Source of the DNA: Chloroflexota bacterium
Lineage (GTDB): Bacteria > Chloroflexota > Anaerolineae > Anaerolineales > Villigracilaceae
Direction of reading: 5' to 3'
DNA: 64,000 bases
NCBI GenBank assembly: GCA_019873735.1
Contig: JAIOAQ010000001.1
Location: 124,001 to 188,000, forward strand
How positions within the stretch are numbered: the first letter of the stretch is position 1; every line of letters starts with the position of its first letter. The notes below the pieces were generated by a model. That model had not been told where the DNA came from, did not search any database, and worked only from the letters and a program-made list of their open reading frames with translations. The translations under genes were made by a program, and so were the position numbers. Below are positions 25,995-29,177 of this stretch, piece by piece.

Positions 25995-26025
25995 TGTAGG
26001 ACAACTGCTCCGCAGTTGTCCTACA
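25995..26025. repeat. perfect hairpin, copy 2 of the dispersed element; contains the stop codon of the NTPase-TPR gene
   Basis: TGTAGGACAACTGC-TCC-GCAGTTGTCCTACA; differs from 8256-8286 only in the 3-nt loop. Confidence 0.88.
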
Positions 26026-28663
26026 GACAGCACCGGCGCAAGGCGGCCTCAATTCGTTGACGATCGCGCGCTTTGCGCGGCTTCAGCGCCAGGGCGCGGC
26101 GCAGGTGCTGGCAGGCCTCGTCGCGCTTCCCCTGTGGGAGCAGGCAATTCACGGCAAAATGATAGTGGGTGAGCGCATCCTTCTCGTTTAGCGTCAGCGC
26201 TTCGCGGAAGCAGTCTTCGGCCTGGGTGTACTCCTTGCGGCGGGCGAGCACGCCGCCCAGGGTGGAGAGTAGCAGGGCGCGCCCGCGCTGCTCGCGCACC
26301 CGCTCCAGCCCCTGGCGCAGGATGGTTTCCGCCTGATCCGGTCTGCCGTTCTGGGCTTCCAGCAGCGCCCAGGCTTGTAAGGTCGGCGCGTTTTTGGGGT
26401 CGGCCTGGCTGGCGCGCTCGAACAGGCGGCGGGCGTCTTCGATCCGCCCCTGCTCCTTCTCCAGCAGCGCCCAGGCTTGCCAGGAAACGGCATCGTTGGG
26501 ATTGGCTTGCGTGGCGCGCTCGAACAGGCGGCGGGCGTCTTCGATCCGCCCCTGCTCCTTCTCCAGCAACCCCCAGGCTTGTAAGGTCGGCGCATTTTTG
26601 GGGTCGGCCTGGCTGGCGCGCTCGAACAGGCGGCGGGCCTCTTCGATCCGCCCCTGCTCCTTCTCCAGCAACCCCCAGGCTTGCCAGGAAACGGCATCGT
26701 TGGGATTGGCTTGCGTGGCGCGCTCGAACAGGCGGCGGGCCTCCTCAATCCGCCCCTGCTCCTTCTCCAGCAGCGCCCAGGCTTGTAAGGTCGGCGCGTG
26801 TTTGGGGTCGGCCTGGCTGGCGCGCTCGAACAGGCGGCGGGCCTCCTCAATCCGCCCCTGCTCCTTCTCCAGCAGCGCCCAGGCTTGCCAAACGGGCGCG
26901 TGTTTGGGGTCGGCCTGGCTGGCGCGCTCGAACAGGCGGCGGGCCTCCTCAATCCGCCCCTGCTCCTCCTCCAGCAGCGCCCAGGCTTGCCAGGAAACGG
27001 CATCGTTGGGATTGGCTTGCGTGGCGCGCTCGAACAGGCGGCGGGCCTCTTCGATCCGCCCCTGCTCCTTCTCCAGCAACCCCCAGGCTTGTAAGGTCGG
27101 CGCATTTTTGGGGTCGGCCTGCACGGCGCGCTCGAACAGACGGCGGGCCTCCTCAATCCGCCCCTGCTCCTTCTCCAGCAACCCCCAGGCTTGTAAGGTC
27201 GGCGCATTTTTGGGGTCGGCCTGCACGGCGCGCTCGAACAGGCGGCGGGCCTCTTCGATCCGCCCCTGCTCCTTCTCCAGCAGCGCCCAGGCTTGTAAGG
27301 TCGGCGCGTGTTTGGGGTCGGCCTGGCTGGCGCGCTCGAACAGGCGGCGGGCCTCCTCAATCCGCCCCTGCTCCTTCTCCAGCAGCGCCCAGGCTTGCCA
27401 GGAAACGGCATCGTTGGGATTGGCTTGCGTGGCGCGCTCGAACAGGCGGCGGGCCTCCTCAATCCGCCCCTGATATTTGAAGGCCAGCGGTAACTTTGTG
27501 GTTAGTTTGCGCTCTTCGGCCAAGGGGTCAGCAGCGAGCAAGCCCCCCAGCACGGCGAACAGGTCCTGGTAGAGATAGCGCTCTTCCGGCAGGCGGCGGC
27601 CGGCCAGCAACTGCAGGGCGCGCTCGGCAATCCAGGGGTGACGAGTATACAGGCGCTGCGGTTCGCTCTCCTCGATATCGGTCAGTTCGCCCTTCAGAGG
27701 GGTGATCAGCAGGTGTTTCAGGTCGGCCTCGGCCTGGTGCAAAAAAGCGGCCAGCAGGCGGCGGGTCATCCAAAAGCCAAAGCGGTGCACCAGGGCGATG
27801 CCGACGTAGCCGCGCAGCAGAAGGGCTGCCCGGTCTTCGCCATAACGTCCCTGCAGACGATCGAAGACGCTTTCCAGGATGGCCTCGAAGGATCGTCCGG
27901 CGCGGGCGGTGATCAGGGCCGGCAGCAACTGTCCATCCGCTTGCAAACGGTCGAGAAAGTACTCCATTCGCTGGTAAGGCGAGCGTTCGGCCAGGGCGCC
28001 CAGAGCATTGTTGCCCTCCAGGCGCTGCAGGATGGCCTGGACTTCTTCCTCCTCCAGGCGGGAGAGGGGGAATTCTTCCACCGTGGCCATCTTTTCCACC
28101 TCTATGCGCAGCGCGCTGTTCTCCCACTCATGGGTGCGCGCCGCGCCGAGGAGCACGAAGGGAATGCCTTTGAGATGCAGATCGTGGAGCGGCTTATCCA
28201 ATCCATCGGCATAGGGCAAATCGTCTACGCAAATCAGGACGGGGCCGGGGTGCTCAAAAGGACGTTCGTAGGGTTCAAGGGCATAGCCGTAGTGCCGCCA
28301 GAGCACCGGCATCCCCTGGGCGGCGGCCTCCCAGGCCAGGCGCATGAGCAAGGTGGTCTTGCCCTCACCGGAAAGCCCGGTGATCACCCCCACCCGCTGC
28401 CCCGGCTCAGCCTGGACGAAATTCATCAGCAACGGGAGGAGCCGGCGCGGCGCATCGTGCCCGCGGGCGATGTTGGCCCAGTTGGCGCGAGTGCCGTTAT
28501 AAAAATCGGCCGGCGTGCCTGTTTGCTGCGCCTGGCGGAAGGCCTCATCCAGCAGGATGAAAGCAAAGCCACCCTGATGACCAATTTCAACCTGGTTGCC
28601 ATCGCCGCTGATGACGACGGTATGGTCGGCGCTGCCCTGAATGGTGATATTGCGTTGTGCCAT
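26021..28663 (-). CDS. P-loop (STAND-like) NTPase with C-terminal TPR array; N-terminal GDGN motif
   Basis: RNITIQGSADHTVVISGDGNQVEIG; Walker A GLSGEGKTTLL; Walker B-like PVLICVDDLPY; 11 near-identical 34-aa TPRs followed by diverged TPRs. Confidence 0.85.
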   Translation of the reverse strand: MAQRNITIQGSADHTVVISGDGNQVEIGHQGGFAFILLDEAFRQAQQTGTPADFYNGTRANWANIARGHDAPRRLLPLLMNFVQAEPGQRVGVITGLSGEGKTTLLMRLAWEAAAQGMPVLWRHYGYALEPYERPFEHPGPVLICVDDLPYADGLDKPLHDLHLKGIPFVLLGAARTHEWENSALRIEVEKMATVEEFPLSRLEEEEVQAILQRLEGNNALGALAERSPYQRMEYFLDRLQADGQLLPALITARAGRSFEAILESVFDRLQGRYGEDRAALLLRGYVGIALVHRFGFWMTRRLLAAFLHQAEADLKHLLITPLKGELTDIEESEPQRLYTRHPWIAERALQLLAGRRLPEERYLYQDLFAVLGGLLAADPLAEERKLTTKLPLAFKYQGRIEEARRLFERATQANPNDAVSWQAWALLEKEQGRIEEARRLFERASQADPKHAPTLQAWALLEKEQGRIEEARRLFERAVQADPKNAPTLQAWGLLEKEQGRIEEARRLFERAVQADPKNAPTLQAWGLLEKEQGRIEEARRLFERATQANPNDAVSWQAWALLEEEQGRIEEARRLFERASQADPKHAPVWQAWALLEKEQGRIEEARRLFERASQADPKHAPTLQAWALLEKEQGRIEEARRLFERATQANPNDAVSWQAWGLLEKEQGRIEEARRLFERASQADPKNAPTLQAWGLLEKEQGRIEDARRLFERATQANPNDAVSWQAWALLEKEQGRIEDARRLFERASQADPKNAPTLQAWALLEAQNGRPDQAETILRQGLERVREQRGRALLLSTLGGVLARRKEYTQAEDCFREALTLNEKDALTHYHFAVNCLLPQGKRDEACQHLRRALALKPRKARDRQRIEAALRRCCL
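26351..27472 (-). repeat. 11 tandem 102-bp (34-aa) near-identical TPR units
   Basis: QGRIEEARRLFERA(T/S/V)QA(N/D)P(N/K)(D/H/N)A...QAW(A/G)LLEKE x11, counted in the translation. Confidence 0.95.
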
Positions 28664-28669
28664 TGCGGT

Positions 28670-29083
28670 TCAGCGGCTTACCTTATTGCCATCGCCGGTG
28701 ATGATCACGCTCCCGCTCACGTTCCCGCCGATGGCGACCGAGCGCTCCCCGCGAGCGGTGACATTCACCCCGGCGGCTTTGGTCTGCTCCCACAGGCGGG
28801 CGATTTCGGCGCGCAGGTCGGCATCCTCCTGCAGGGCGCGGGCGATCTCGGCGCGGAGGGCCTCGCCGAGGGCGGCGTTATTGGGCAGGGCGGCCGCGGT
28901 CTGTGCCACCTGTTCAACGTTCTTCTTGCGGCGCAGTTTTTCCCACAGCGCTTTGGCGCGCTCCCAGGCGGCCTCGCCGAGTTTCTTGCCGGCCTCTTCG
29001 GCGGCCTTTTCGCCCATCTTGAGCAGGTAGGGCAGGAAGGGGGCGAGGAAGGTGGTCAGTTGTTGGATGGATTGGGCGTCCAT
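28670..29083 (-). CDS. small helical protein with C-terminal GDGN motif, partner of the NTPase-TPR gene
   Basis: Start taken at MDAQSIQQLTTFLAPFLPYLLKMGEKAAEEAGKKLGEAAW; C-terminus NVTARGERSVAIGGNVSGSVIITGDGNKVSR; 6 nt from the next gene. Confidence 0.75.
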   Translation of the reverse strand: MDAQSIQQLTTFLAPFLPYLLKMGEKAAEEAGKKLGEAAWERAKALWEKLRRKKNVEQVAQTAAALPNNAALGEALRAEIARALQEDADLRAEIARLWEQTKAAGVNVTARGERSVAIGGNVSGSVIITGDGNKVSR

Positions 29084-29177
29084 AGCATTCTCCGATCTGG
29101 ACAATTGCAAAGCAGTTATCCTGCGCATCAGGTTGGTTTTATTTTACATCCAACTTTTGGGCCGGGCGCCGCAGCGT

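Follow-up and report, generated by a model that had tools for sequence, protein, structure and literature searches.

A candidate NLR-like effector-adaptor-sensor gene pair sharing a terminal motif in an Anaerolineae bacterium

The gene pair and its shared terminal motif

The window analyzed here, a stretch of 64,000 nucleotides from contig JAIOAQ010000001.1 of a filamentous-type Anaerolineae bacterium (Chloroflexota), carries two adjacent genes on its minus strand, which we call gene A and gene B. An earlier note, made from the letters alone, had placed two open reading frames 6 nt apart at 26021-29083, and both were found there. Gene A (28670..29083) encodes a small, predicted helical protein of 137 residues, a candidate effector with an adaptor motif at its C-terminus; gene B (26021..28663) encodes an NLR-like STAND NTPase with tetratricopeptide repeats (TPRs), 880 residues long. 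The gap between the gene A stop and the gene B start comprises positions 28664..28669, an operon-like arrangement. The ATG of gene A lies at 29083 with GGAG upstream; an alternative in-frame ATG at 29128 is possible. All features described below are on the minus strand.

Gene A ends with GERSVAIGGNVSGSVIITGDGNKVSR and gene B starts with MAQRNITIQGSADHTVVISGDGNQVEIG. An ungapped alignment of 23 residues pairs ERSVAIGGNVSGSVIITGDGNKV of the former with QRNITIQGSADHTVVISGDGNQV of the latter, and the two 45-residue ends score 60, whereas none of 20,000 double shuffles reached this value, their maximum being 53; the claim that the C-terminus of one protein and the N-terminus of the other have a motif in common thus stands. 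From the profile and the alignment, the effector-side copy is the 27-residue segment TARGERSVAIGGNVSGSVIITGDGNKV (28679..28759), while the receptor-side copy, MAQRNITIQGSADHTVVISGDGNQV, occupies residues 1-25 of gene B (28589..28663). In relatives, the conserved unit measures about 24-27 residues, with the consensus xAxGERxVAIGGxxxGSxIITGDxNxV. The shared motif had originally been given as VxIxGDGNxV; the shared stretch is real, but the unit is longer, and GDGN is only its tail. No part of the unit is less informative than this tetrapeptide: its third residue may be G, N, H, Q, R, or E in relatives, and its codon pattern is common in the genome, with 65 occurrences versus 31 for the reversed one. 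We therefore ruled out GDGN as the motif on its own.

Behind the motif, gene B contains an nSTAND_NTPase5 domain (Pfam PF25199; residues 53-183; 28115..28507), matched with an E-value of 3.9e-22 and 79.1 bits (cut-off 34) over profile positions 2-140 of 145. Its P-loop, GLSGEGKTT, lies at 28352-28378, and the P-loop residues are invariant in an aligned homologue. A putative sensor array of 11 near-identical 34-residue (102-bp) TPRs follows at 26358..27472, and degenerate C-terminal TPRs are found at 26024..26347 (TPR matches at residues 798-829); TPR_2 matches with an E-value of 5.1e-67. The order of a P-loop NTPase followed by TPRs had been read correctly from the letters. The 11 units share on average 83% amino-acid and 87% nucleotide identity and differ mostly at repeat positions 14-24. 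They fall into two main types of sequence that are intermixed along the array, which, together with the high nucleotide identity, suggests recent homogenization or expansion of the sensor. In their internal homogeneity they resemble repeats that have been reported from fungal NLR sensors. The long antisense open reading frames over the same region are mechanical.

Gene B is a clear member of the nSTAND_NTPase5-TPR proteins, from which it differs by its N-terminal motif and its separately encoded helical partner. The fetched loci contained ten frames homologous to its NTPase half, one of them a duplicate because the contig is present twice (L056/L094); the motif is N-terminal of the NTPase in all ten. 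An AlphaFold prediction of the N-terminal 420 residues from two sequences gave a predicted local distance difference test score (pLDDT) of 42 and no usable model. PADLOC matches to gene B were set aside, as they are located mainly in the TPR region.

Recurrence of the motif and of its partners

We built a motif profile from 27 examples. It identified 9 copies in the organism's own genome and had matches in 50 of the 249 class-level genomes and, at the level of the phylum, in 23 of 251, the two samples overlapping. Twenty of the 99 matches in the class sample form 10 same-strand pairs less than 1 kb apart, where about 0.03 would be expected. In the fetched loci, the reversed profile found no match versus 137 for the real one; because these loci had been selected by the motif, this control tests composition artefacts only. 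In 56 proteins where the motif lies N-terminal of a large region, Pfam identified NACHT (22), nSTAND5 (15), NB-ARC (11), EAD10 (10), nSTAND3 (8), and nSTAND1 (5) domains (overlapping counts), and a P-loop lies downstream of the motif in 40 of 48 such proteins compared with 40 of 398 other open reading frames of the same loci. Among 59 proteins that either are short or carry the motif at or close to the C-terminal end, Pfam identified TCAD2 (9), caspase (5), TIR (2), SIR2 (1), and CHAT (1) domains; BELL-type helical proteins (L132, L072) and a protein with two transmembrane (TM) helices (L112) are further examples from the effector side. The profile and neighbor search that the earlier note had proposed therefore returned an association with STAND NTPases and conflict-type effectors. 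As relatives attach the motif to both, it has the appearance of a plug linking effectors to immune-type sensors.

On contig 25 of the same genome (G000:C25; L146:2422-4446), a paralogue of gene B combines TIR, motif, nSTAND5, and TPRs in a single chain (TIR_2, E-value 1.2e-26; nSTAND5, E-value 3.9e-24). This fusion is a covalent version of the gene A/B pair; gene B, unlike the fusion, opens with the motif at residue 1, and its candidate effector is encoded by a gene of its own. The family pair itself recurs in two other genera, with the effector first in L048 and the sensor first, after which comes a 4-nt gap, in L056. Fusions to a NACHT-type region were seen in seven other homologues of the helical part of gene A, and most of these proteins have an FGE-like C-terminus; at L054, L062, L063, L065, L068, and L069, one protein combines a gene A-like helical domain with a NACHT-type region and, at its C-terminus, an FGE/SUMF1-like part.

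The effector/sensor layout is also found on plasmids of cyanobacteria and actinobacteria. On plasmid3 of Aulosira laxa NIES-50, a gene A homologue precedes an NLR with the motif inside its EAD10-like N-terminus, the effector-side copy scoring weakly (E-value 0.036). In Tolypothrix PCC 7601, a CHAT protein that bears the motif twice precedes an nSTAND1 protein with an N-terminal copy. In Streptomyces WAC00288 p1, a two-TM protein with a C-terminal motif is followed by an NB-ARC-TPR gene, whose own copy lies in the extended frame upstream of the annotated start, so that this start seems to be annotated too late; the two-TM gene (L180:2500-3243) is unannotated. A helical protein from Nonomuraea bears the motif at its end.

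A reading of the shared segment as a generic beta-turn or a chance likeness, devoid of functional coupling, draws on the abundance of GDGN-like tetrapeptides, with 65 DNA matches in the genome, and on a resemblance of half of the motif to a YadA-like repeat (see below). It is contradicted by the shuffle test, the enrichment of close pairs, and the association with NTPases and effectors, and the reversed-profile control also speaks against it; we regard it as extremely improbable. The earlier note had named a generic turn with no neighbor association as the outcome that would overturn its proposal, and what we observed, including the TIR-motif-nSTAND5 fusion, is the opposite.

Several other motif-bearing loci are recorded here for completeness. 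Those in the organism's own genome lie at C20:31283 (L009), C35:21834 (L010), C45:18391 (L011), C2:51042 (L014), C24:48967 (L012), and C20:516 (L013); their products are a CHAT-like protein, a TCAD2-type protein, a protein that has a single TM helix besides the motif, two STAND proteins resembling NACHT, and a 43-residue frame that is almost motif only. A G-rich repeat, GGAYVGGNVNTGGGDFVGRDK, stands directly N-terminal of the motif in L082, L083, L099, L100, and L010 and is possibly a second adaptor class. At L103:3-545, a class-V aminotransferase fragment with a terminal motif copy lies directly upstream of a motif-bearing NLR-like gene and is either an unusual effector or a fusion artefact. 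Finally, nSTAND5 genes with an N-terminal motif in L138 and L122 are preceded by genes for Crp/Fnr-type regulators, not by an effector gene.

Gene A as a candidate effector

Residues 3-103 of gene A (28775..29077) form, according to AlphaFold and hhalign, a helical-bundle domain that is remotely BELL-like. The AlphaFold model, calculated from 12 sequences, consists of six helices with a pLDDT mostly between 67 and 91 within the block. The motif tail is unstructured, with a pLDDT below 50, and two short strands, at and just before the motif, are predicted at low confidence. The first helix (residues 3-22; 29018..29077) is hydrophobic and contains the conserved residues P15, P18, and K22. Hydropathy and AlphaFold thus back the hydrophobic start and the helices that had been described for this small protein.

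Searched against Pfam, NCBIfam, and PADLOC, gene A yielded no match that passed a family cut-off, and its family carries no name in these collections. Homologues with 66-39% identity occur in Anaerolineae and Nostocales; about one-sixth of the sampled genomes of the class have them, some of these matches being to the motif only. Compared by hhalign with plasmid BELL-type proteins, a set chosen by pairing and sequence and not taken from the original BELL paper, the gene A family obtained a probability of 88.8%, versus 0.1-1.5% for controls. A sequence search against solved structures returned nothing convincing. An MLKL/HeLo four-helix fold found no support, as Foldseek listed MLKL only at an E-value of 3.9 and a probability of 0.04, and direct membership of EAD10 was rejected, as PF19954 gave no match.

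Interpretation and relation to known signaling systems

The original BELL-BASS study is said to be that of Dyrka et al. 2020, J Mol Biol 432:6005. In this type of NLR amyloid signalosome (PMC7889193, PMC8086366), a motif at the effector C-terminus and at the sensor N-terminus is encoded in adjacent genes (PMC7889193), and most of the hosts named in the review are actinobacteria or cyanobacteria. The gene pair in the window resembles these systems in combining a small, predicted helical protein with a hydrophobic helix and a C-terminal motif with an adjacent STAND NTPase that has superstructure-forming repeats and an N-terminal motif, and also in that the motif occurs on TIR and CHAT proteins; the effector/NLR layout proposed at the outset therefore matches published pairs. 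It differs in that gene A is only remotely BELL-like, the receptor NTPase is of the nSTAND5 type, and the host belongs to the Chloroflexota. Effector-associated domains (EADs) have likewise been proposed to couple effectors through homotypic contacts (PMC7159879, PMC8195603), and several features of the EAD principle of Kaur et al. (PMC7159879, PMC8195603) were found here as well: a non-enzymatic module on core NTPases and on effectors, in adjacent genes, and in several copies per genome. We consider it probable that genes A and B constitute a two-gene NLR-like effector-adaptor-sensor module of the BELL-BASS/EAD kind. Direct support for this assignment comes from the gene layout, from a motif that recurs as a mobile module, from the STAND NTPases and diverse effectors that accompany it, and from the covalent TIR version; the predicted helical bundle of gene A may be added.

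A number of results weigh against it. The hydropathy of the first helix of gene A is moderate, with a 15-residue mean of 1.23, and Foldseek found no significant match for the gene A model in the PDB, the best E-value being 1.0. The hhalign probability drops to 79.5% without L068, to 36% without the four most divergent members, and to 3% once the Chloroflexota BELL sequences are also removed; as the kinship depends on intermediate sequences, we call gene A BELL-like and not BELL. The G-phi-Q-phi-G core, with the glutamine of RHIM and PP, is absent from both motifs in the window, although RHIM, fungal PP, and BASS3 are likewise short G/N-rich beta segments. The BASS3 peptide VDLRDAKGVQVGDGNVQINRF contains GDGN (PMC8086366), yet the motif profile does not recognize BASS3 (E-value 5), nor does it recognize the motifs of two other BELL pairs. 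This rules out equating the motif with BASS3 because of the common GDGN, and the motif appears to belong to a different class, BASS3 being the only one of BASS1-10 compared. Under the EAD principle, adjacent copies should resemble each other more than other copies do; partner motifs are slightly more alike within than across pairs (P 0.016-0.018, 14 pairs), and the pair in the window ranks only 7 of 14 by BLOSUM or 11 of 14 by identity. Pair-specific coding is thus unsupported for this pair, which is unremarkable while the overall excess is slight, and coupling specificity forms no part of our conclusions.

Nor was a defence island seen around the locus, where the neighbors are metabolic, and PADLOC returned no meaningful match for the gene pair. 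These two observations temper the conflict or immunity role suggested in the earlier note, which the effector/NLR pairing and the conflict-type effectors of relatives favor. They also speak for a regulatory module, in which gene A would be a scaffold or inhibitor docking on the N-terminus of gene B, and gene B would control development or metabolism: the flanking genes encode a DeoR regulator, a GH1 glucosidase, an amidohydrolase, and a proline racemase, and the two nSTAND5 relatives mentioned above adjoin Crp/Fnr-type regulators. In relatives, however, the effector slot holds caspase, TIR, SIR2, CHAT, and TM proteins, and the nSTAND5 paralogue in the same genome has a fused TIR. We judge a regulatory module unlikely.

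As to the class of the motif, a literature search found no paper on it. The EAD10 profile (PF19954) spans a helical half and runs into the motif in L075 (residues 4-67) and in the Aulosira protein (residues 1-80). Genes A and B lack the helical half, so that the beta half would stand alone here, and PF19954 matched neither the C-terminus of gene A nor the N-terminus of gene B at E-values up to 10; since the motif alone does not match EAD10, this connection is a lead, not proof. Comparison with published motifs and EADs, also suggested earlier, thus bore out the layout and the EAD principle but not an identity with BASS3 or PF19954. Many gene A relatives (L051, L053, L059, L091, L093, L168) have a second motif, GKYNxxIxxAxGxAIGDxAxV, after the main one. 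In some of them this segment, GKYNINIGNAQGVVIGDGAQV, is weakly BASS3-like (5.8 bits, with 2 of 300 shuffles as good), and in L053 positions 34-61 of EAD10, its beta half, align to it. The best reading of these sequence comparisons is that the motif is related to EAD10 and distinct from BASS3.

The same sensor-adaptor-effector logic could operate with a motif that is a soluble beta-solenoid, beta-roll, or strand-swap tag, giving defined oligomers and no prion-like amyloid. In its first half, the motif shows a weak resemblance to the left-handed beta-roll repeat of the YadA head, with an E-value of 0.036 that falls short of the cut-off; tandem copies exist in the Tolypothrix CHAT protein, AlphaFold places the two low-confidence strands at and just before the motif, and the motif is not BASS3. 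On the other hand, its length of 24-27 residues, its terminal position, its composition of G, N, D, S, and beta-branched residues, and its partition between effectors and NLRs fit published amyloid signaling motifs. We think a soluble tag somewhat unlikely, and within the effector-adaptor-sensor module we give an amyloid mechanism roughly even chances.

If genes A and B form such a module, gene B would act as sensor and switch, its TPR array detecting a ligand or a phage or stress product. Oligomerization of the nSTAND5 NTPase would bring the N-terminal beta-motif copies of gene B together, and these clustered motifs would nucleate the C-terminal motif of gene A by homotypic stacking, possibly as an amyloid-like beta-arch. 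The helical bundles of gene A would thereby be gathered, and the hydrophobic N-terminal helix may then attack or insert into the membrane, resulting in cell death or arrest. Homotypic binding, membrane action, toxicity, the trigger, and a function in defence are thus all parts of a proposed model; for a putative anti-phage role of the pair the balance is about level.

Tentatively, and with somewhat less than even confidence, we propose that the motif represents a signaling-motif family without a prior name, widespread in Anaerolineae and also present in cyanobacteria and actinobacteria. It may be an autonomous EAD10 beta half that serves a new family of helical effectors together with nSTAND5-TPR sensors, in which case the EAD and amyloid-motif literatures would describe one coupling device. 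The locus offers a compact NLR/effector pair in the Chloroflexota, with a natural covalent control, the TIR-motif-nSTAND5 protein, in the same genome. Searches with the motif profile could match orphan sensors to orphan effectors. Should the motif be amyloid, prion-like immune signaling would be extended to another phylum and connected to EAD10.

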